A stretch of 64,000 nt of DNA from Candidatus Nitrosoglobus terrae (GTDB lineage: Bacteria > Pseudomonadota > Gammaproteobacteria > Nitrosococcales > Nitrosococcaceae). Position 1 is the stretch's first letter. Each line of letters starts with the position of its first letter. Below the pieces are notes generated by a model. It was given only the letters and a program-made list of their open reading frames with translations, was not told the DNA's origin and ran no database searches. Location of the stretch: positions 248,001 through 312,000 of the forward strand of contig NZ_AP014836.1 of assembly GCF_002356115.1 (NCBI RefSeq), in the 5' to 3' direction. Shown here piece by piece: positions 4,358-62,057 of this stretch. Made by a program: the position numbers and the translations under genes.

Positions 4358-5014
4358 CTATAAAGTAACTTCTAGGATCTGGCTGAGGTTATTAGCTATA
4401 TCTACTACGTTATCGGTGCCATTGACCTTATATAGCTTGCCCTGAGCAGCATAATAATCAATAAGAGGCGCTGTTTGGGTTTCATAAGTTTGTAGGCGGT
4501 TGTGGATGGTTTGCTCATTATCATCTGATCGCTGGATGAGTTGATGGCTACCACATTGATCGCAACGCGATGAATCTTTAGGGGGTGAAAAATAAAGATT
4601 ATAGATGGTACCGCAAGCTTGACAGGTACGACGTCCTGTCAGTCGCTTCATTAGCACTTCAAAATCTACATCCAGCAGAATGACGGCTTGTAGCGGCTGA
4701 TTCTGAGAGCTAAGCATTGTATCGAGAGATCTAGCTTGAGTTAGGTTTCGAGGAAATCCATCAAGAATGTAACCTTGGGTCGCATCGGCTTGAACGAGTC
4801 GCTCACCTACAATGCGAGTTACGATATCATCGGAGACTAATTCTCCCGCTTCCATGGCGGCTTTAGCTTGTTTTCCTAGCGGGCTACCTGCGGCAACAGC
4901 GTCACGTAATAAGTCTCCAGTGGAGATTTGAGGAATATTATATTTTTGGGATAGTAATTTACCTTGAGTTCCTTTTCCAGATCCTGGGGCGCCAAGTAAC
5001 GCTATTCTCATCAT
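4358..5014 (-). CDS. adk: Adenylate kinase
   Basis: Adk interconverts ATP plus AMP and two ADP in the cytosol. The 218-residue protein has the P-loop GAPGSGKGTQ at residues 8-17, the AMP-binding stretch ISTGDLLRD, the DGFPRN motif, and a long LID domain carrying four cysteines (CQACG and CDQCGS). That makes it the zinc-binding long form, as in many Gram-positives and some gammaproteobacteria, unlike E. coli Adk. It heads the operon and is divergent from pfp across a 270-base gap. Confidence 0.97.
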   Translation of the reverse strand: MMRIALLGAPGSGKGTQGKLLSQKYNIPQISTGDLLRDAVAAGSPLGKQAKAAMEAGELVSDDIVTRIVGERLVQADATQGYILDGFPRNLTQARSLDTMLSSQNQPLQAVILLDVDFEVLMKRLTGRRTCQACGTIYNLYFSPPKDSSRCDQCGSHQLIQRSDDNEQTIHNRLQTYETQTAPLIDYYAAQGKLYKVNGTDNVVDIANNLSQILEVTL

Positions 5015-5284
5015 GAATTTTCCTTAAAAAATAACTAATATTGAACTATATCAAATATTAAAGTGTTTTTTCCTAATTTTATAGGATTGCTACGCTCGAA
5101 ATAAGTATGAAAGGCTACAGTGCTATCTGAGTAGCTTATAGAAGTGTTAATTTTTATTATTAAAAACGTAATATTTGGATTAGGAAATTAGTTCAATTGT
5201 AATAGAGCTATTTTTAGTATCTAGATCTAATTAGCTCATCCTAATTTTAGAGATATTCTTGTTAGCTTGATTAAGGAGAACAAT

Positions 5285-6553
5285 ATGGTTAAAAAAAATG
5301 CATTTTACGCTCAGTCAGGGGGTGTTTCCGCCGTTATTAATGCTTCTGCTTGCGGGCTTATTGAGACTGCTCGGCAATACTCGTCTAGCATCGGTAAGGT
5401 TTATGCGGGGCGTAATGGCATTATTGGTGCTTTAATGGAAAATCTGATTGATACTAGCCAAGAAAGCGATGACGCTATTAGGGCTTTACGGCACACTCCA
5501 GGGGGAGCATTCGGATCTTGCCGCTATAAACTCAAGAGACTTGAAGGGAACAAAGACGAATATGAGCGTTTAATTAGAGTGTTTAAAGCCCATGATATAG
5601 GGTATTTTTTTTATAATGGGGGCGGTGACTCCCAAGATACTGCTTATAAGGTATCTCAAATTGGAGATCGGCTAGGATACCCTGTGGTTTGTATTGGCAT
5701 TCCTAAAACCATAGATAATGATTTGGCGGTGACGGATAACAGTCCAGGATTTGGATCGGTTGCAAAATATGTGGCCGTCTCAGTGCGAGAGGCTGCTTTA
5801 GATGTGCTCTCTATGGCCTTAACTTCAACAAAAGTTTTCATTTTAGAGGTTATGGGTCGCCATGCAGGTTGGATTGCTGCTGCAAGCGGTTTAGCTGCAA
5901 TGCAAGCGGGGGATGCGCCTCATATTATCTTGTTTCCTGAAATTCCTTTTAATGAAGATCAATTTCTCCGTAAAGTGAATAGCAGCGTTAAGGATTATGG
6001 GTATTGCGTGATTGTGGCCTCAGAAGGCGTACGTAATGAGGTAGGCCAGTTTTTATCTGCTATGAGCGCTCAGCAAGATGCCTTTGGTCATGCCCAGCTT
6101 GGCGGCTTAGCGCCTTTTTTAGCTCAGATAGTAAAGGAGAAGCTAGGTTATAAATACCATTGGGCGGTATCAGATTATCTACAGCGATCGGCTCGGCATA
6201 TTGCCTCCCAAGTAGATGTTGAACAAGCCTATCAAGTTGGTAAAGCTGCTGTGGAGTTGGCGGTTAAGGGTGAGAATGCGGTGATGCCTATCATTATACG
6301 TACATCCCAGGATCCCTATCGCTGGGAGATTGGATCAACTGCGCTGAAAAATGTAGCTAATGTGGAAAAGAAATTGCCTCAAAATTTTATTACCCAAGAA
6401 GGCTTTGGGATTACGCAAGCAGCTCATTCTTATTTAGCGCCCTTAATTGATGGGGAAGACTACCCTCCTTATAAGCATGGATTACCTGTCTATGTACAAC
6501 TTAAAAATATTCCAGTTGAGAAGAAGCTTAAGGAAACATTTATCTTAACTTAA
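5285..6553 (+). CDS. pfp: Pyrophosphate-dependent 6-phosphofructokinase
   Basis: The enzyme interconverts fructose 6-phosphate and fructose 1,6-bisphosphate using PPi. The ATG at 5285 is chosen over the upstream TTG (5267) because AAGGAG sits just before it. Counted from that ATG, GGGDS (112-116) has Asp where ATP enzymes have Gly, and PKTIDND (140-146) has Lys141; both are marks of the PPi-dependent type. EVMGRHAGWIAA is the substrate-binding motif. The length (422 residues) suits the group found in methylotrophs and ammonia oxidisers, where the enzyme lets glycolytic flux run reversibly with little energy cost. It is a single gene followed by a strong hairpin. Confidence 0.95.
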   Translation: MVKKNAFYAQSGGVSAVINASACGLIETARQYSSSIGKVYAGRNGIIGALMENLIDTSQESDDAIRALRHTPGGAFGSCRYKLKRLEGNKDEYERLIRVFKAHDIGYFFYNGGGDSQDTAYKVSQIGDRLGYPVVCIGIPKTIDNDLAVTDNSPGFGSVAKYVAVSVREAALDVLSMALTSTKVFILEVMGRHAGWIAAASGLAAMQAGDAPHIILFPEIPFNEDQFLRKVNSSVKDYGYCVIVASEGVRNEVGQFLSAMSAQQDAFGHAQLGGLAPFLAQIVKEKLGYKYHWAVSDYLQRSARHIASQVDVEQAYQVGKAAVELAVKGENAVMPIIIRTSQDPYRWEIGSTALKNVANVEKKLPQNFITQEGFGITQAAHSYLAPLIDGEDYPPYKHGLPVYVQLKNIPVEKKLKETFILT

Positions 6554-6583
6554 GCTAGAGTAATTAGAAGTAGCGCGAATAAA

Positions 6584-6636
6584 TTAGGCTACCGTAGGAT
6601 GCTTTAGCCCATAGCTTCAGGGTAGCCTAAATATGA
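6584..6636 (+). terminator. Hairpin downstream of pfp
   Basis: A 10-base-pair perfect stem (TTAGGCTACC / GGTAGCCTAA at 6584-6593 and 6621-6630) with a 27-base loop lies 30 bases after the pfp stop. The convergent sppA gene ends just beyond, so the hairpin may serve both directions. No long T-run follows. Confidence 0.5.
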
Positions 6637-6695
6637 AAGTTTACAGTATTAAGTAAGCGTCGAAGAAGAAGCTAGGATTCCTAATGTTATTAACA

Positions 6696-7670
6696 TTATC
6701 TAATCTGACTAGAGATAAAGCTGGATAACGCACTGCTTAATGTGGCTCCAAGCTGATTGGCAAACCGTTCTAACAATCTAGGCTTAGAAGTGTAGTCAAC
6801 GATTTTTTCTGTCTTTAAGATCTCGTGGGCCACATAGTCGCTACTTCCTAAACCGTCTATTAGCCCGAGGGTAAGAGCTTCTTCTCCTGTCCATACTAGG
6901 CCGCTGAAAAGAGAGGGATCATCTTTAAGTCGATCTCCTCGGCCTTCTTTTACTTTCTGAATGAATTGCTCATGGATATTAGTTAACATTTTCTGGATAT
7001 GCTGGCGGTCAGATTCTGCTGTTGGTGAGAATGGGTCAAGAAAACCTTTGTGATCTCCTGCCGTGAATAAACGCCGCTCTATCCCTAATTTTTCCATAGC
7101 CTCGACAAATCCGAAGCTGTTAAGCAATACGCCAATAGAGCCTACGAGGCTTGCTTTATCCGCATAAATTTTATCTGCTGCCACTGCAATATAGTATCCG
7201 CCAGAGGCACAGATGTCGGTGATAACCGCATAGATGGGGATTTTGGAGTGCTTTTGATGTAGACGGTGAATTTCATCGTTAATATAGCCTGCTTGAACTG
7301 GGCTGCCACCAGGGCTGTTAATACGCAGGATAACTCCAGTAGTGTGCTCATTTTCAAAGGCCGCTTGTAGCCCTTTTTTAATATTCTCTGCGCTAGCAGG
7401 TAGGTCAGCAGTAATTACCCCATCTATATCTATCAATGCAGTATGAGGTGTTGAGATTCCTGGGGCGCTAGCTCTATCAAGAGAATATAACCATAAGACC
7501 GTGATCAGGTAAGCGAAAAATAATATTTTAAAAAAAATGCTCCAACGACGCGCTCGCTGTTGTTCTTTGAGGGCACTGAAAGCTAGGCGTTGTAAAGTCT
7601 CTTGTTCCCAAGATAACTGTTCTTTTGCTTTTTTTGGGGAGAGCGGGATAGAAGGATTTTGTTCAGACAT
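6696..7670 (-). CDS. sppA: Signal peptide peptidase SppA-type S49 serine protease
   Basis: The protein has a cytosolic N-terminus, one membrane anchor (IFFKILFFAYLITVLWLYSL, about residues 44-63), then a periplasmic S49 protease domain. The ICASGGYYIAVAADKIYAD motif carries the nucleophile serine. The length of about 324 residues is that of the short, homo-octameric SppA type (SohB/SppA36K-like), not the 618-residue E. coli SppA. The ATG at 7670 is preferred over 7685 because GGAGG lies 5 bases upstream. It follows rluC closely, and the two are probably one operon. It degrades leftover signal peptides and membrane fragments. Confidence 0.9.
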   Translation of the reverse strand: MSEQNPSIPLSPKKAKEQLSWEQETLQRLAFSALKEQQRARRWSIFFKILFFAYLITVLWLYSLDRASAPGISTPHTALIDIDGVITADLPASAENIKKGLQAAFENEHTTGVILRINSPGGSPVQAGYINDEIHRLHQKHSKIPIYAVITDICASGGYYIAVAADKIYADKASLVGSIGVLLNSFGFVEAMEKLGIERRLFTAGDHKGFLDPFSPTAESDRQHIQKMLTNIHEQFIQKVKEGRGDRLKDDPSLFSGLVWTGEEALTLGLIDGLGSSDYVAHEILKTEKIVDYTSKPRLLERFANQLGATLSSALSSFISSQIR

Positions 7671-54945: not shown

Positions 54946-55117
54946 ATTAAAACCTCAATGATTTAGGTGGTATTAAGTGAAGCAAGCAGTAAGCTTAACT
55001 TGTTGTATCATTATTTTAACCAAAATACCCTAGGAGGCTAGTTTCTTTAGCAGTTTATGAGTGACATCAATAGATAATAGGGTTTAATGGATAACTATAT
55101 CATCGAGGAAATAGGCC

Positions 55118-55558
55118 ATGAGTACCTATAAAGCTGATTTTTATGCGTGGACGCAAGAGACAGCAGCCCTTCTTAAGCAGGGTCGATTTAGTGAGGTAGA
55201 TATGGAGGCATTGATTGAAGAGGTGGAGGATATGGGAGCAAGCAAGGAGCGCGAGCTTGAAAGTCGTCTGATGGCATTACTGATTCACCTACTTAAATGG
55301 CAGTATCAGCCGACTCATCAAGGCTTTAGCTGGCGACAAACCATTGAGAACCAGCGCGGAAGAATAAAGCGTAGACTTAATAAAACCCCTAGTCTTAAAC
55401 CGAAGTTAATTGAGATCATGGAAGAGGCTTATTTGGATGCAATTGGGGAGGCGGCGCTTGAAACCGGCCTTGCTAAGAAGACTTTTCCCGCTAACTTTGA
55501 GCAAACCGGCTGGAGTATAGCGCAGGTGCTGAATGAGGCGTTTTATCCAGAATCATGA
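55118..55558 (+). CDS. DUF29 family protein, copy 1
   Basis: A 146-residue DUF29 protein, opening ADFYAWTQETAALLKQG with the central LLIHLLKWQYQP motif. The family is common in bacteria with many repeats and mobile regions, and its function is unknown. Its stop overlaps the hsdS start (ATGA), so they are co-translated. A second copy at 61.4 kb shares the start MSTY.TDFYAWTQETAA.L and the same central motif, at clearly lower overall identity. Confidence 0.88.
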   Translation: MSTYKADFYAWTQETAALLKQGRFSEVDMEALIEEVEDMGASKERELESRLMALLIHLLKWQYQPTHQGFSWRQTIENQRGRIKRRLNKTPSLKPKLIEIMEEAYLDAIGEAALETGLAKKTFPANFEQTGWSIAQVLNEAFYPES

Positions 55559-56799
55559 CTAATCCGCACAACCCAAAGAGGGCCTTAACACCCCGCCTAC
55601 GTTTTCCAGAGTTTCGGGAGGCGGGGGCGTGGGAAATAAAACCGCTAAATCAAGTATCACCATCTATCTTTGATGGAACTCATCAAACCCCGAAATATAC
55701 GGAAAGGGGAGTCCCGTTTTTTAGTGTGGAAAACATCGTTAGCGGAAACAAGAACAAGTTTATTTCGGAGCAGGACCATATTGCTGCGACCCGAAAAAAT
55801 AAACCGAAATTAGGAGATATCCTTATCACCCGTATTGGAATAATTGGATATTCGACTATTGTTGACTGGGATTATGAATTTAGTATTTACGTAACCTTAG
55901 CAGTAATTAAAAAATCACTAATTGCCGATTCATACTTTCTACATTGTTATTTCCAGTCAGAGCGATATCAAAAAGAAATTCTTAGCAAGTCTCTATTGAA
56001 TGCGGCTCCATGTAAAATCAATATGGATGAGCTTCGTAAAACTGAGGTATTGTTTCCAAAACTTCCAGAGCAACAAAAAATTGCCGCCTGCCTTTCCTCT
56101 CTCGACGAACTCATCACGGCAGAAACCCAAAAACTAGAAGCCCTCAAAATTCATAAAAAAGGCTTAATGCAACAACTGTTCCCCCGTGAAGGGGAAACTG
56201 TGCCCCGCCTACGCTTTCCTGAATTTCGGGAGGCGGGGGAGTGGGAAGAAAAGCAGCTAGGGCAGTTTGGTGATGTATTGATGTGCAAAAGGATTTTTGC
56301 ACACGAAACAAGTGATGCTGGCGGTGTTCCATTTTTCAAAATCGGTACGTTAGACGGCAAACCAGATGCTTTTATAAGTAAAGAGCTTTTTGAGATCTAT
56401 AAGGCCAAGTACAACTTTCCTCGAACAGGCGAGGTATTGATTACATGCAGTGGAACGGTTGGTAAATGTCTTCCATACGATGGGAAAGATGCATACTACC
56501 AAGATTCAAACATTGTTTGGATTGACAACCCAACGCTTAAGGTGAGTAATGAATTTTTGTATGCCATTCTCTTAAGTGTTGATTGGGGAAGTTTGAACTC
56601 CACAACGATTACACGAATATATGGGGCAGATTTACGAGGATTGCTTATTAAATTCCCCTCTGAAAAGAAAGAACAACACCGCATTGCCGCCTGCCTCTCT
56701 TCCCTCGATGATCTCATCACCGCCCAACGCCAAAAAATCGACACCCTTAAACGCCATAAAAAAGGCTTGATGCAGCAGTTGTTTCCTAAGCCTGAATAA
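55555..56799 (+). CDS. hsdS: Orphan type I restriction-modification specificity subunit HsdS
   Basis: HsdS supplies target recognition for type I R-M complexes. The 414-residue protein has two halves, each opening PRLRFPEFREAG.WE (about 14-27 and about 215-228) and each closing with EQQKIAACLSSLDELITA...HKKGLMQQLFP. These repeats bound the two target-recognition domains. No hsdM or hsdR lies near: the left neighbour is DUF29, itself overlapped by 4 bases. A third isolated copy of the opening repeat is at 59.6 kb. It is possibly a decoy or a spare recognition subunit for an hsdM elsewhere. Confidence 0.9.
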   Translation: MTNPHNPKRALTPRLRFPEFREAGAWEIKPLNQVSPSIFDGTHQTPKYTERGVPFFSVENIVSGNKNKFISEQDHIAATRKNKPKLGDILITRIGIIGYSTIVDWDYEFSIYVTLAVIKKSLIADSYFLHCYFQSERYQKEILSKSLLNAAPCKINMDELRKTEVLFPKLPEQQKIAACLSSLDELITAETQKLEALKIHKKGLMQQLFPREGETVPRLRFPEFREAGEWEEKQLGQFGDVLMCKRIFAHETSDAGGVPFFKIGTLDGKPDAFISKELFEIYKAKYNFPRTGEVLITCSGTVGKCLPYDGKDAYYQDSNIVWIDNPTLKVSNEFLYAILLSVDWGSLNSTTITRIYGADLRGLLIKFPSEKKEQHRIAACLSSLDDLITAQRQKIDTLKRHKKGLMQQLFPKPE

Positions 56800-57278
56800 T
56801 TAACAAGGTACTAGGAGCTTTTTTGTTGAAAGCTTAACCCGTTCATATCCTAAGCGGTGGTTTATTTCTGTGCGTTAGACTCTTACGGTCACGCGCTGAT
56901 TCCGCTGGTAAGTCGGGGGCTAAAGTTGATTGTCCGGGGGTAAATTAAAGTTCTCTTATATACAGATACAGGATCAGGACTTAAAAACAGTTAAAATTAC
57001 AATAACTTACAAAGATAAAGGTTATCTTATAAGATACTATTCCAGTAATATATATTCGTGCTGGAATTAGGATAATGACTGAAAAACACATTGAAGGAAT
57101 ACGGGGATGTTATGACCCCTAGCTAGAGTGCGAAGCGTGGCGGCGCACAGAGCGCGAGGGCAGCTTAAGGTGATTTGAGGCGGCTAGAATTCGCGGTATA
57201 ATCGAGTGCGCAGGTAGCTGATGTTAGCGCACCAACTACCCACTTGCCACAGACCTAATAGCCTTAAATATTGAGGCC
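56800..57278. other. Region upstream of TnpB, likely element left end
   Basis: Nothing coding is recognised in about 480 bases. A GC-richer part (56870-56940, 57110-57260) differs from the AT-rich middle and probably includes the left end of the TnpB element. The end itself could not be resolved. Confidence 0.4.
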
Positions 57279-58451
57279 ATGACTGAATCTAATTCTACTA
57301 AAATCCAACGAAGCTACAAGTTTCGCTGCTATCCCAATAGCATTCAACGCCAGCAATTATCCATTGAATTTGGTCATGCTCGTTGGGTATGGAATAGTTG
57401 TTTAGCTTGGCGTACGAATATCTATAAAGTCTATGGTGAGAAAGTCACAGCGATAGATTTTAGTCGTGAACTCACTTTTCTTAAGCAACTAGATACTTAT
57501 AGTTGGTTAAAAGAAGCAAGTGCTACAGTTCTTAACCAAAAACTCAGAGACCAAGATATAGCCTTTAGGAATTTCTTTGCTGGTCGTGCAAAGTATCCTA
57601 AGTTTAAAAAGAAGTTACATGCCCAAAGCATCCGCTATCAGCTAGACCAACGAATAATCACTAACCTGTATCGAGCTGGTGAATTTATCAAGCTTCCTAA
57701 ATTAGGCGTACTTAAACTTAAGTGGTCTCGTAAGCCCATAGATATTCCTAAAGTGGTTACAGTTATTAAAGACTGTACAGATCACTACTTTGTCTCCTTT
57801 ATGTGTGAAGAAAGTATTCAACCTCTACCGCGAAAGCCAAACGGTATTGGTATAGATTTAGGTGTTAGGGATGTTGTAGTTACTTCTGAGGGTTGGAAAT
57901 CAGGCAATCCAAAACATCTACGCTTACATGCTCGCACATTAAAGAAAGCTCAGAGACGATTTTCTAGGAAGATAAAGGGTAGTAAACGATGGCATAAACA
58001 ACGAGTTATCGTTGCTAACGTGCATGCCAAAGTAAGAAATACCCGCCAAGACTGGATACACAAGCTCAGCACTACCCTTATTTACCAAGCAGGTTTTATT
58101 GCTATGGAAGATTTAAACGTTAAGGGTATGATGGCTAATCGACGATTGTCTAAAGCTATTGGGGATGTAGGCATGCACGATCTTAACCGACAATTGGAAT
58201 ATAAGGCCAAGTGGGCTGGTACTGAGTTTGTGCAGGTAAACCGCTGGGCACCTACTAGTAAGACGTGTTCTGAGTGCAGCAGCGTACAAGAGACCATGCC
58301 GTTATCGGTGCGCAATTGGACATGTCCAGACTGTAATATATCTCATGATAGAGATGTTAATGCAGCTAAGAATATTTTAGCGTTAGCTACGGTTGGGAGA
58401 ATCGAAAGTTATGCGCGTGGAGGGGTACACAAACTGGAGGTAGTTGTATGA
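57279..58451 (+). CDS. tnpB: TnpB RNA-guided nuclease of an IS605/IS607-type element
   Basis: A complete 390-residue TnpB. The N-terminal KSYKFRCYPN-like start, the RuvC-I GIDLGVRD, RuvC-II IAMEDLNVKGM with its glutamate, a zinc ribbon (CSEC...CPDC) and RuvC-III HDRDVNAAKNIL are all intact. TnpB cuts DNA guided by an omega RNA from the element's 3' end. No TnpA transposase accompanies it, so movement would need one elsewhere. Sequence after the stop (58452-58515) has features of the right end and runs into the RepL-like remnant. Confidence 0.92.
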   Translation: MTESNSTKIQRSYKFRCYPNSIQRQQLSIEFGHARWVWNSCLAWRTNIYKVYGEKVTAIDFSRELTFLKQLDTYSWLKEASATVLNQKLRDQDIAFRNFFAGRAKYPKFKKKLHAQSIRYQLDQRIITNLYRAGEFIKLPKLGVLKLKWSRKPIDIPKVVTVIKDCTDHYFVSFMCEESIQPLPRKPNGIGIDLGVRDVVVTSEGWKSGNPKHLRLHARTLKKAQRRFSRKIKGSKRWHKQRVIVANVHAKVRNTRQDWIHKLSTTLIYQAGFIAMEDLNVKGMMANRRLSKAIGDVGMHDLNRQLEYKAKWAGTEFVQVNRWAPTSKTCSECSSVQETMPLSVRNWTCPDCNISHDRDVNAAKNILALATVGRIESYARGGVHKLEVVV

Positions 58452-58516
58452 CTGCTAAAAGACTCCTGCGAAACGCGAATTGTAGCCAATCGAATGAGGC
58501 TGCCGGGAACAGCCAA

Positions 58517-58992
58517 ATGAAATTTAGCCGCAAACTCCAAATACAAATAGATGCTAATACGGGGGAATTCTTGAAAAGGGTTTTGTGGCCTATATTGTTC
58601 CTAAGCGACAAAATGGATTTGAAAAGGAGTGGCTAGCGATGTCTCAAGAAGCACTTAAAGCCCTTGCAACCAGCGGGTTGAATGGGGAAGATTTTAGGGT
58701 GCTGATGGCCTTATTAGCGCGGCTTGATTTTGAAAACCTGCTCATCGTCAATCAAGCGGAAATCGCCCGTGAAATTAATATAAAGCGCCCTAATATAAAT
58801 AGAGCTATTAAGAATCTCATTGCTATCGATGCGCTTTTAGAAGGGCCTAAAGTGGGTACAAACCGCTCTTATCGGCTTAATCCTTACTTTGGCTGGAAGG
58901 GGAGCGCTAAAAATCACCGTAAAGCTTTAGATAAGAGGATGCAGGCGACAGGGCTAAAGGTATTTGAGGGGAATAAAGATCTTAAGTCTTGA
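58517..58992 (+). pseudogene. RepL-like plasmid replication initiator, frameshifted near its N-terminus
   Basis: The ATG at 58517 starts KFSRKLQIQIDANTGE; the frame then breaks near 58566, and the second frame reads ILEKGFVAYIVPKRQNGFEKEWLAMSQEALKALA with a winged helix (VNQAEIAREINIKRPNINRAIKNLI) and FGWKGSAKNHRK. This is the RepL family pattern. One missing A in GGGGGAATTC would restore the frame. A restart at ATG 58639 could still yield a wHTH domain. It indicates that a plasmid once integrated here. Confidence 0.75.
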
Positions 58993-59100
58993 GAGGTATA
59001 TTCGCTATATATTTTATTTACTATATATTTATGTATATATAAGAAAGGAAGAGGAGGGCGAGCGGTAAAACTGTATTTTACGTACAAAGGAGAGGGAAAG
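58993..59100. other. AT-rich spacer with short purine-rich runs
   Basis: A short spacer with TATATTTATGTATATA-type repeats. Nothing coding is recognised; the ribosome site GGAGAGG of the next small gene is at its end. Confidence 0.35.
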
Positions 59101-59238
59101 ATGAAAAAGCAGACTTTATATAGGTATCAACAAATACGGAATACGCTATTCGTACTTATCTCAAAACACGCTGAAACATTAGCGATGATTGTCCTTTATT
59201 TACTAGCGTTAGCCGTAACAATCCAGGCAGAAAGCTAA
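59101..59238 (+). CDS. Small single-span membrane protein (45 residues)
   Basis: An ATG with the good ribosome site GGAGAGG encodes 45 residues: a basic N-terminus (MKKQTLYRYQQ) and one hydrophobic helix (LAMIVLYLLALAVTIQA). No family is recognised. Placed between a plasmid initiator and an integrase remnant, it may be a small plasmid gene. Confidence 0.45.
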   Translation: MKKQTLYRYQQIRNTLFVLISKHAETLAMIVLYLLALAVTIQAES

Positions 59239-59311
59239 CTCACTGTACAAGCCATTAGTGGCCTGATTAAAACGAAATTAATTCGCATATGCTATTTAAT
59301 ACCATAGCCGA

Positions 59312-59554
59312 TTAACCGCCCACAGCCTACGGTATACAGTAGTAGGGCTGATGGGCGGCTCTAGTCTGCAAGCGGCGAGGCAACTTGCCCGCCATTCCAA
59401 AATGACTACCATTAAGATTTATACTCACAGCCTAGAAGCCTTTAATAACTCACGCCCTTTCATCATTAACAGCGTCATTTTTCGACATAGGAGATCAACG
59501 GGCATGGGTGAGGAGCGTAAAATAATGAACGCCATGGGCTTAAAAATAAATTAG
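59312..59554 (+). pseudogene. C-terminal remnant of a tyrosine recombinase
   Basis: The open stretch reads LTAHSLRYT, then LMGGSSLQAARQLARHSKMTTIKIYTHSLEAFNNS. This is the catalytic end of a phage/plasmid integrase with H-x-L-R and the tyrosine (IYTHSL). The N-terminal three quarters are absent. It marks the boundary of a past insertion. Confidence 0.75.
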
Positions 59555-59603
59555 CTGTGCTGTTACTTCATTTACTCAAAAAGAATGTATTAACATTTTG
59601 GTT

Positions 59604-59662
59604 ATGCTTGCCTGAATTTTAGGAAGCGGGGGTGTGGGAGATAAAAAAGCTGGGTTTGTTAG
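59604..59662 (+). repeat. Isolated third copy of the hsdS opening repeat
   Basis: The stretch CTGAATTTTAGGAAGCGGGG followed by GTGTGGGAGATAAAAAAGCTGG matches the two hsdS repeats at about 55,596 and 56,212 (the copies that encode PEFREAG.WE). It is not in an open frame. It is a fragment of another hsdS gene. Confidence 0.75.
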
Positions 59663-59768
59663 GTGCCTGACTTATAGGATTGTTAGGCTAGCTGTAGTGT
59701 AGCTGTAAGCCATAGGAGGGAGTGTAAAAATAATTGACAGAAGCGAGCATGAGGGTTAGAAGGCATAG

Positions 59769-59806
59769 AGAACAGCCTAGTAAAGCAAAGACTAGGCTGT
59801 TCTGTT
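59769..59806 (-). terminator. Hairpin after PEP-CTERM gene 2
   Basis: A perfect 13-base-pair stem (AGAACAGCCTAGT / ACTAGGCTGTTCT) with a 9-base loop, 29 bases past the stop of the minus-strand gene. No T-run follows on that strand, so its role as an intrinsic terminator is moderate. Confidence 0.55.
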
Positions 59807-59834
59807 CCATCAATAAGTTATCAGTTAAATAATA

Positions 59835-60602
59835 TTAAACAGCAAGATGGGGGTTCAGTGAGATCAGTTGACTACGATGTAGTCTAGGTATTAAGCCCAT
59901 CATCAGCAGCCCAAGGCCAAAAATACTTAACATACTAGGTTCGGGCGTTGGGTGAACGGATTCTATTAAATAGACCCCCCCCGTTGTATAGTTGGAGTTG
60001 GGAGTGTTCCCCGGACCTTGGGTATTCCACCCTAAAATGAATTCACCTGATGAGAACTTCGCATAAGGATTATTACCTATCTTAAGATAGGTCTTATTAT
60101 TTCCTTGAAGGGTAACCATTTGGAGATCACCACCATTTAATGTGGGATCAGAGTAAAAAGTACCATTGGAGCCGGAAATGTAATAACCAAATTGATCCGT
60201 CGGATCATTAGTAAAAGGTACTGGAACTCCATTATTTACAGAGAACTCATTACCGTTCTCAGTCAATGAGACCGCCGAATTTTCGCTTGTCGCATCGGCA
60301 CTAAATATTTGTAATGTAGTATTTATATTATTAGGGTCATAGATACCAAAGGAGTAACCATTATTACTTGTGGCTTGGAAGACGACTCTATTTTCGCTAC
60401 CCCCACTTGAGTCCATAACCCAGTGACTGCTTGGAAATACCTGATCGGTAGTGGTATTAATCGGCGTCGGCGGAGTTGTAGGCTTAGTAATGTTGTTTAG
60501 GTCATCCTGTAGGGCATCGTTCATCATAATGGTAGCCGTGGCAGGCATTGTAAAAAAGGTTGTGACTAATCCAGCAAGACCTAAATACGTATATTTATTC
60601 AT
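59835..60602 (-). CDS. PEP-CTERM surface protein 2
   Basis: A 255-residue exported protein. The signal peptide (MNKYTYLGLAGLVTTFFTMPATA) leads a beta-rich domain (residues about 50-215) without recognised motifs. The C-terminus TPEPSMLSIFGLGLLMMGLIPRLHR is a standard PEP-CTERM signal cut by an exosortase. Upstream at 60672-60685 (minus strand) is a sigma-54-type -24/-12 promoter, about 70 bases before the start. It lies within the plasmid-derived stretch, so it may have been acquired with it. Confidence 0.9.
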   Translation of the reverse strand: MNKYTYLGLAGLVTTFFTMPATATIMMNDALQDDLNNITKPTTPPTPINTTTDQVFPSSHWVMDSSGGSENRVVFQATSNNGYSFGIYDPNNINTTLQIFSADATSENSAVSLTENGNEFSVNNGVPVPFTNDPTDQFGYYISGSNGTFYSDPTLNGGDLQMVTLQGNNKTYLKIGNNPYAKFSSGEFILGWNTQGPGNTPNSNYTTGGVYLIESVHPTPEPSMLSIFGLGLLMMGLIPRLHRSQLISLNPHLAV

Positions 60603-60671
60603 AAATATTGCCTCTACTTTAGTTGTTATTGAGTAATTATACTTATAATAAATAAAGCAATTATAAGATTA

Positions 60672-60685
60672 GCAATAACCATGCC
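60672..60685 (-). promoter_or_regulatory. Sigma-54-type promoter of PEP-CTERM gene 2
   Basis: On the minus strand GGCATGGTTATTGC has the invariant GG and GC at spacing 10. It is the same architecture as at 16534-16547. Confidence 0.7.
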
Positions 60686-61134
60686 TAAAGGTTAATAATT
60701 GAATGTTTATAAGTAGATAGGATTTTTCTTGGGCATCTAGCGCTGTGGGGATTGTAAAAAATAATGACAGTAGCCATATAAAAATCCTGAGGGTATCAAG
60801 GCTTAAGGGTGTCTTTCTTAGGGGAGTTTAGTACTAATATTTCTATTAGTTTCAAATATTTATGAGTTGTGGAGCCATAACATATTTAATATCTATTTTC
60901 AAGATCCAAAAATGTTAAAAATATTGACAGATTAGATGTCATTTTATTTTACAGATTGTTTTAGCGGTGGATGATGAAGCAGGCTACTTAAGTTTTATGA
61001 CATTTCAATTCAGGAAGGCAATGTTATTCTAGATAGAGGCTTAGTTTTTATTGATAAGAGCTGTCCTGCTAATCTTTTTTAGCAAAGATCAAAAAACTAA
61101 TTAAGCTATATTAGAGCTGAAACGATGACCAGAA
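60686..61134. other. Intergenic region with TTGACAG-type repeats
   Basis: Nothing coding was recognised in about 450 bases. Segments near 60753-60779 and 60914-60940 resemble the segment at 59726-59752 (GTAAAAATAATTGACAGAAG-like). Confidence 0.35.
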
Positions 61135-61389
61135 AATGAATTATACAAATGGATGCTGATACGGGGAGAAATTCTGGAAGGGAGCTGTATGGTTTATAAG
61201 GAAAAGATTTTAGATTTGGCTATCAAGCAAATCAACAAGCATACAGACATCGAAGTCAGCTACTAGTAACAGAAACAGGGTCGTAAGGTATCAGGGTTCT
61301 TCTTTAGCTTTAAGCAAGAGGGGTCTGAAGCTGAAAAGAACCATTTTATACCTTTTCAGCAGCAATTCATCCCTCATACAACAGGATAA
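61135..61389 (+). pseudogene. Remnant joining a RepL-like start to a Rep_3-like C-terminus
   Basis: The stretch IQMDADTG (61144 onwards) matches the RepL-like start at 58.5 kb. After a frame break the other frame reads EILEGSCMVYKEKILDLAIKQINKHTDIEVSY, two stops (TAG TAA), then QKQGRKVSGFFFSFKQE. The latter part resembles the C-terminus of Rep_3 plasmid initiators (AIKEIN..TD..VSY, GRKV). It is a plasmid relic and cannot make a functional protein. Confidence 0.65.
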
Positions 61390-61393
61390 CTTT

Positions 61394-61822
61394 ATGAGCA
61401 CCTATGAGACAGATTTTTATGCTTGGACACAGGAGACGGCGGCAAAGCTACGACAAGGGAAACTGGCCGAGGTGGATTTAGAACAGATTGCTGAGGAACT
61501 GGAGGAAATGGGCAGAAGTGAGTTGAGGGAGCTGGATAGTCGGCTAGGTAAACTTTTGGCACACTTACTCAAATGGCAGTATCAGCCAACACACCGAGGC
61601 AAAAGCTGGCTGTTTACGATTACCGACCAGCGCGCTCGAATTCAAAAACTTATACGGAAAAATCTTGGACTGCAACCTAAGATAGCTGAGGCTTTGGCGG
61701 ATGCTTACCCCGATGCGGTCCGCTTGGCTGCTTTTGAGACAAATTCTGAGTTATCAGATTTTCCCTTAACATGCCCATGGACTTGGGGGCAGGTGATTGA
61801 TGAGGCTTTTTATCCTGAGTAA
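61394..61822 (+). CDS. DUF29 family protein, copy 2
   Basis: A 142-residue DUF29 protein, clearly paralogous to the copy at 55.1 kb over its N-terminal 50 residues (MSTYETDFYAWTQETAAKLRQGKLAEVDLE) and the LLKWQYQPTH motif. The family function is unknown. It closes the plasmid-derived region. Confidence 0.88.
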   Translation: MSTYETDFYAWTQETAAKLRQGKLAEVDLEQIAEELEEMGRSELRELDSRLGKLLAHLLKWQYQPTHRGKSWLFTITDQRARIQKLIRKNLGLQPKIAEALADAYPDAVRLAAFETNSELSDFPLTCPWTWGQVIDEAFYPE

Positions 61823-62057
61823 ATAAGGCTCCACTCTTAGTTTCCAAAACTCTAAATTTCGTGGGTCGCCATCGCCAGCAGGCTTGTGGAGGGTCAGGAG
61901 TAGAGTAGAGCAGGCATGGAGGATCTCTAGGATGTTCTAAGTAGGGATCTACTGGTGAACCCAGTCATCTCCGCCGCTTGCGTAAAGGTAATAAGCTGTA
62001 GGTTATTCGTATTGAGCGCATTTGTTGCGGCTGTAATTCTTGAAAACCGGTGGATCG
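61823..62057. other. Intergenic region, no gene seen
   Basis: GC-richer bases after DUF29 copy 2 without a recognisable gene. Confidence 0.35.

Follow-up and report, generated by a model that had tools for sequence, protein, structure and literature searches.

A lone hsdS gene overlapped by a DUF29 gene is probably an additional specificity subunit gene for a distant type I restriction system

Phase-variable inverting hsdS loci carry more than one hsdS-like sequence with common ends, and their neighbouring hsdS genes have inverted repeats between them. Both additional hsdS genes and shuffling among them are already known, and the only unusual point of the locus described here is its DUF29 neighbour. 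For plasmids of Lactococcus lactis, the authors supposed that an extra (orphan) hsdS acts with the chromosomal HsdM and HsdR, and the role suggested for such genes was the addition of specificities and the formation of chimeric S subunits by recombination (extracts of PMC3138775). In a case of shuffling covered in a review, two hsdS genes are reported to have crossed over within a near-identical stretch of 130 nt (extracts of PMC3874165).

The sequence analysed here (the window, 64 kb; C1:248001-312000 in a genome of two contigs and 2.02 Mb) carries an hsdS gene directly behind a gene of the DUF29 family (Table 1). Searches of the genome found neither hsdM nor hsdR in the window, every match being located elsewhere; the preliminary description of this DNA was thus correct in stating that no hsdM or hsdR adjoins the gene. 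Like the plasmid genes of L. lactis (extracts of PMC3138775), this hsdS stands alone and has the usual constant and variable regions, the cell encodes hsdM and hsdR of its family at another site, and the same role may apply. Unlike these, it is chromosomal (C1) and gammaproteobacterial, and it lies behind DUF29 and not behind a replication gene. As in domain shuffling (extracts of PMC3874165), near-identical central and C-terminal constant stretches are combined with unrelated recognition domains and a repeated half-S layout, but the two hsdS genes concerned, that of the window and that of locus L030, are far apart, and recombination between them is a prediction. With inverting loci the window has in common that more than one hsdS-like sequence with common ends is present. 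In contrast to them, there are no inverted repeats (0 pairs of at least 20 nt in 55100-61900), and neither a second intact hsdS nor an intact recombinase gene was seen beside the first. The DUF29 protein is a full-length match to its family (PF01724) with a helical model, and nothing specific sets it apart.

Table 1 Features of the DUF29-hsdS region and related loci of the same genome. Coordinates refer to the window unless preceded by a contig name.
Feature	Location	Strand	Description
DUF29 gene	55118-55558	+	146 aa; PF01724 E 2e-49 (Pfam)
hsdS	55555-56799	+	414 aa; specificity subunit of a type I restriction system; PF01420 E 2.9e-37, two matched stretches
N-terminal constant block (PRLRFPEF...), repeat copy 1	55591-55647	+	85% over 54 bp to C1:1968796-1968849
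First recognition domain, approximate, residues 33-150	55651-56004	+	13/113 aligned residues identical to partner hsdS
Central constant region	56054-56259	+	89% over 194 bp to C1:1968208-1968401; 58/65 residues identical
Helix copy, inside central constant region	56067-56183	+	pairs with 56670-56786
Repeat copy 2, inside central constant region	56203-56259	+	86% to copy 1 (57 nt)
Second recognition domain, approximate, residues 240-360	56272-56634	+	29/119 aligned residues identical to partner hsdS
C-terminal constant region	56670-56786	+	97% over 117 bp to C1:1967648-1967764
Third repeat copy, decayed hsdS left-end scrap	59596-59665	+	in-frame TAG; reads LPEF*EAGVWEIKKLG
Second DUF29 gene of the window	61394-61822	+	no hsdS behind; PF01724 E 2.7e-48
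L029			complete type I locus: hsdM, hsdS, hsdR, other genes interspersed
L030	C1:1965393-1971868		complete type I locus, order hsdR-hsdS-hsdM; hsdR overlaps hsdS
Partner hsdS (L030)	C1:1967623-1968909		constant regions as in window HsdS
Partner hsdM (L030)	C1:1965393-1967000		named hsdM by NCBIfam TIGR00497
L031			complete type I locus, order hsdR-hsdS-hsdM
L033	C1:1470557-1474284 (1558-5285 of L033)		DUF29 between ZorA/ZorB/ZorE (Zorya II) and type III methylase gene
L034	contig C2, 6436 bases		plasmid-like; RepM replication gene with DUF29 gene beside it, helicase-like gene
L035	C1:620227-622142 (4228-6143 of L035)		four tandem DUF29 genes; two pilin-like genes (by eye) beside
L036	C1:1564489-1567076, 1570007-1571791 (4490-7077, 10008-11792 of L036)		decayed type I locus with fragments of HsdS and HsdR; DUF29 gene and HerA-type ATPase gene nearby
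L037			DUF29 gene beside DUF927-like fragment (by eye)
L009/L032			DUF29 gene broken by stop

The reading frames of the pair do overlap by four bases, as described previously (ATGA, 55555-55558), and the ATG of this junction is the sole ATG, GTG, or TTG start ahead of the conserved PRLRFPEF motif in hsdS (by eye). The DUF29 product matches PF01724 with 167.8 bits against a cut-off of 22.5 and covers profile positions 2-138 of 138. Joint translation of DUF29 and HsdS through the overlap is plausible, as is co-transcription of the two genes; a functional partnership is not supported. A promoter scan of the genome returned promoter-like sites no more commonly than in shuffled sequence. Upstream of the pair, hemL, a housekeeping gene, is encoded on the opposite strand. 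The side with hemL and the helicase gene is kept in 5/5 family members, and in these five the 1.5 kb beyond hemL, where DUF29 and hsdS are located here, encodes nothing that matches the window.

Two Methylase_S domains are found in the single HsdS chain. The protein matches full-length models for specificity subunits (PADLOC Specificity_I, E 3.6e-103) and structure 1yf2 (E 1.5e-12), its reading frame is intact through 414 codons, and all constant regions are kept. The duplicated opening repeats noted in the preliminary description are present, a 57-nt pair of direct repeats 612 bp apart, and are accompanied by a longer duplication, not mentioned there, of 117 nt (56067-56183 and 56670-56786, 76% identity) at a distance of 603 bp. 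HsdS is built of two half-subunits, and these spacings correspond to one of them; the repeats represent the two-fold repetition that is usual in HsdS. Each end of the protein holds one part of the repeated unit, PRLRFPEF alone at the N terminus and the helix alone at the C terminus. Type IC S subunits start and finish inside the distal conserved domain (extracts of PMC3874165), a description which the termini of the window HsdS fit as far as the layout of the constant regions goes.

The genome encodes HsdS at four places, a strong HsdM at three, and HsdR at three in addition to a decayed piece; three type I systems are complete (L029, L030, and L031). That the window HsdS, previously called an orphan, has no partner is not supported: the same constant regions are carried by the complete hsdR-hsdS-hsdM locus L030, which is located on the same contig at a distance of 1.66 Mb. 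The DNA of the window hsdS matches the L030 hsdS in its C-terminal, central, and N-terminal constant regions (Table 1) and has no further match in the genome. Identical runs of 80 (from position 56707), 35, 29, and 24 bp are shared. In the protein, 21/27, 58/65, and 40/48 aligned residues of the constant regions are identical, while the recognition domains are unrelated. No blastp match at E 1e-3 connects the window HsdS with those of L029 and L031. HsdM contacts the conserved regions of S (extracts of PMC3138775), and because these are common to both HsdS proteins, the HsdM of L030 would be the natural partner. We infer this pairing from the shared constant regions. The nearest HsdS in another genus (L167) also has the same constant regions, with 24/122 identities in domain 1 and 55/118 in domain 2, a comparison which suggests that recognition domains have moved independently in this lineage.

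The window thus contains an intact two-domain HsdS which has its constant regions in common with L030 and no comparable likeness to the other two systems. It is probably an extra specificity subunit that borrows HsdM and HsdR from L030 and is able to swap domains with it, DUF29 being unrelated. The steps which follow, all of them beyond the comparison of sequences, are what we infer. DUF29 and hsdS might be carried on one message, or hsdS might be transcribed from an unrecognised promoter, and HsdS would be translated either by reinitiation at ATGA once translation of DUF29 has ended or with the help of signals belonging to hsdS itself. Through the common constant regions, it would join two copies of the L030 HsdM (and HsdR) and would direct these subunits to a second bipartite recognition sequence. 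The long identical stretches could let both hsdS genes trade recognition domains by homologous recombination. DUF29 would be an unrelated, plasmid-associated gene that landed upstream and has at most a common transcript with hsdS.

As to its origin, the pair might be what is left of a type I operon that was once longer: DUF29 would have entered it between hsdR and hsdS, and hsdR and hsdM would have been lost later. Such a history is compatible with the function as an extra subunit. In L167 (387-2134), a small gene, which we take to be DinD-like (by eye), is placed in the same manner between the end of hsdR and hsdS, with a 4-bp overlap to the latter, and the gene order of L030 with its hsdR-hsdS overlap is also in line with it. 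However, no remnant of hsdR or hsdM was found around the pair, and the upstream neighbour hemL is on the other strand, so that we regard this origin as rather unlikely.

Downstream of hsdS, the window carries a TnpB gene (57279-58451) of the IS200/IS605 type, an RNA-guided nuclease family. It is followed by an ORF for a winged-helix, replication-protein-like product with weak MarR/HTH matches (58585-58992) and by a fragment resembling the tail of an integrase (59351-59554; by eye), and these two suggest an old mobile element in this part of the window. The third repeat copy, previously placed 3.4 kb away, does exist (59596-59652, start-to-start spacing of 3393). It shows 67% identity to the hsdS repeats over 57 nt (BLAST: 75% over 63 nt, E 2e-5 to 6e-5), with no exact in-register run of 10 bp, and, being a decayed scrap with an in-frame stop codon, is not a realistic exchange partner. 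An exchange of recognition domains through repeats, as had been proposed, is possible in principle, but its realistic partner is the distant hsdS with the 80-bp identical run.

Decayed and mobile pieces around hsdS (the TnpB gene, the integrase-like fragment, and the hsdS scrap at 59596) would also fit a gene that had no useful expression and were a silent store of recognition domains, or a decaying relic of an operon or plasmid. The decayed locus L036 shows that type I loci do decay in this genome, and the scan gave no clear promoter. An open reading frame intact over its full length, with all constant regions conserved and differing in few residues from those of the L030 HsdS, argues against it, and we consider a silent gene unlikely.

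DUF29 genes number 11 in the genome, one ahead of hsdS and another 6.3 kb further on in the window. Relatives are found on plasmids (83/72,556 records), and the five plasmid records that were read, from small plasmids, have either a lone small DUF29 gene or a DUF29 pair overlapping by 4 bp, with replication, toxin-antitoxin, and hypothetical genes as neighbours. No relative was detected in 50,697 phage records; viral contigs yielded none with a single-protein query and nine loci with an alignment query. Close co-directional neighbours at 80 loci, drawn from 84,980 species genomes, are varied and include GatB, VanZ-like, Uma2-like, and other proteins (by eye). In a Microcoleus assembly (L123, 4278-9497), DUF29 is flanked by a DNA methylase gene and a truncated HsdM, and HsdS follows at a greater distance. 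The AlphaFold2 model of the window protein consists of helices only (mean pLDDT 94.2), and the family profile has a match in 3FCN (E 1.3e-5, residues 3-67), a helical protein of solved structure. Foldseek returned no match of the model in the PDB at E 0.001 (best: NeC3PO, E 0.33), and the VIA-align rows, all with Z <8, carry little weight for helical bundles. R-x6-H is an RNase-type, HEPN-like motif; its two residues occur in 79/131 (R50) and 126/131 (H57) DUF29 sequences, so that the two are not kept together as a motif. A literature search found no paper naming DUF29 or PF01724. DUF29 is a multi-copy and often plasmid-carried gene and is probably a chance passenger ahead of hsdS.

The coupling of DUF29 and HsdS as a unit, proposed in the preliminary description, is not supported by the neighbourhoods of either gene. 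Only 1/11 DUF29 genes of this genome adjoins hsdS, and HsdS is the immediate neighbour in 0/137 DUF29 loci from other genomes, as judged with S, M, and R profiles which were built from few seeds and miss divergent HsdS. Flanks of 1.5 kb were used for L058-L077 and L213-L240; those of all other loci reached up to 5-6 kb. All loci L058-L166 were included in the type I profile scan, and 7/109 have type I genes within their flanks (L072, L086, L113, L123, L133, L157, and L158); an S match occurs in three of these (L086, L113, and L123) and is never immediately beside DUF29. In the neighbour table for L078-L166, 14/89 loci lost DUF29 to a longer overlapping ORF, and 90 DUF29 genes in 75 loci remain. 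For the 28 loci L213-L240, obtained from a scan of 48 loci of which 20 had been counted already, no match to the S, M, or R profile lies in the 1.5-kb flanks. Conversely, DUF29 is found within 1.5 kb of 0/47 HsdS loci from the family and class (L040-L057 and L167-L195, including a few pairs of matches in one gene), and among the 48 HsdS loci scanned, that of the window alone has DUF29. Rare DUF29-hsdS junctions may exist elsewhere, as recurrence was judged from the neighbourhoods of DUF29 and HsdS loci. By these counts, the adjacency is probably an accident more than a unit.

A looser association is seen at a larger scale. HsdM of the N6_Mtase type occurs in the flanks of 4/80 DUF29 genome loci, against about 1.2 expected (265 N6_Mtase matches in 194.6 Mb from 37 genomes; Poisson probability of at least 4 given 1.3: 0.04), a density that was estimated from 38/80 loci with every locus having type I genes included and is perhaps slightly high. 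Among 369 genomes of the class, the window HsdS has a match in 12/21 with DUF29 versus 75/348 without (Fisher p 0.0007; 0.0016 when the own genome is left out). A DUF29-like scrap of 71 bp (75%, E 5e-6) also lies downstream of the L030 hsdM. Of the two observations previously named as contrary to a coupling, an hsdMR with its own hsdS was found (L030), and DUF29 adjacency is absent from the DUF29 and HsdS loci scanned elsewhere, yet co-occurrence at the genome level is above chance. We read these observations as a tendency of both kinds of genes to gather in the same mobile stretches rich in defence genes, and in genomes that contain much mobile DNA; a loose functional link of DUF29 with type I genes would be a less likely reading.

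That DUF29 is an accessory of the window HsdS, which for example limits restriction or aids assembly, is very unlikely. The ATGA overlap and this mild enrichment, around type I genes as well as in genomes that have a related HsdS, would fit such a role, as would the DUF29 copies at L036 and L033, but adjacency does not recur in other DUF29 or HsdS loci. Moreover, the closest paralogous hsdS belongs to a complete operon that lacks an intact DUF29 gene. Overlaps of -1 or -4 also join DUF29 to other genes (e.g., at L105 and L093) and to another DUF29, and the start of the L167 hsdS is overlapped by a different small gene, so that the overlap is not specific to DUF29. Joint expression, as suggested earlier, is plausible from the junction, but a working partnership lacks support from recurrence. 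We also consider it highly improbable that DUF29 is a small helical accessory which travels with restriction systems and other genes for defence, acting on the specificity subunit or methylase, with the ATGA pair as the fixed form of such a partnership. In that case, DUF29 might, for example, stop an incoming HsdS from causing restriction of host DNA whose sites still lack methylation.

The genome encodes a subunit of ammonia/methane monooxygenase (PF02461, E 9.7e-118), from which the host appears to be an ammonia-oxidising gammaproteobacterium; its family, Nitrosococcaceae, comprises three genera among the genomes searched. For the interpretation of such loci, overlap is weak evidence of joint function when one of the genes is multi-copy and mobile, as is the case for DUF29. 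If the window HsdS does serve as an extra subunit for L030, this organism would obtain two recognition specificities while using a single set of subunits for restriction and methylation, and could gain further ones by recombination. This would be a known bacterial route to varied phage defence, here in a little-studied group.
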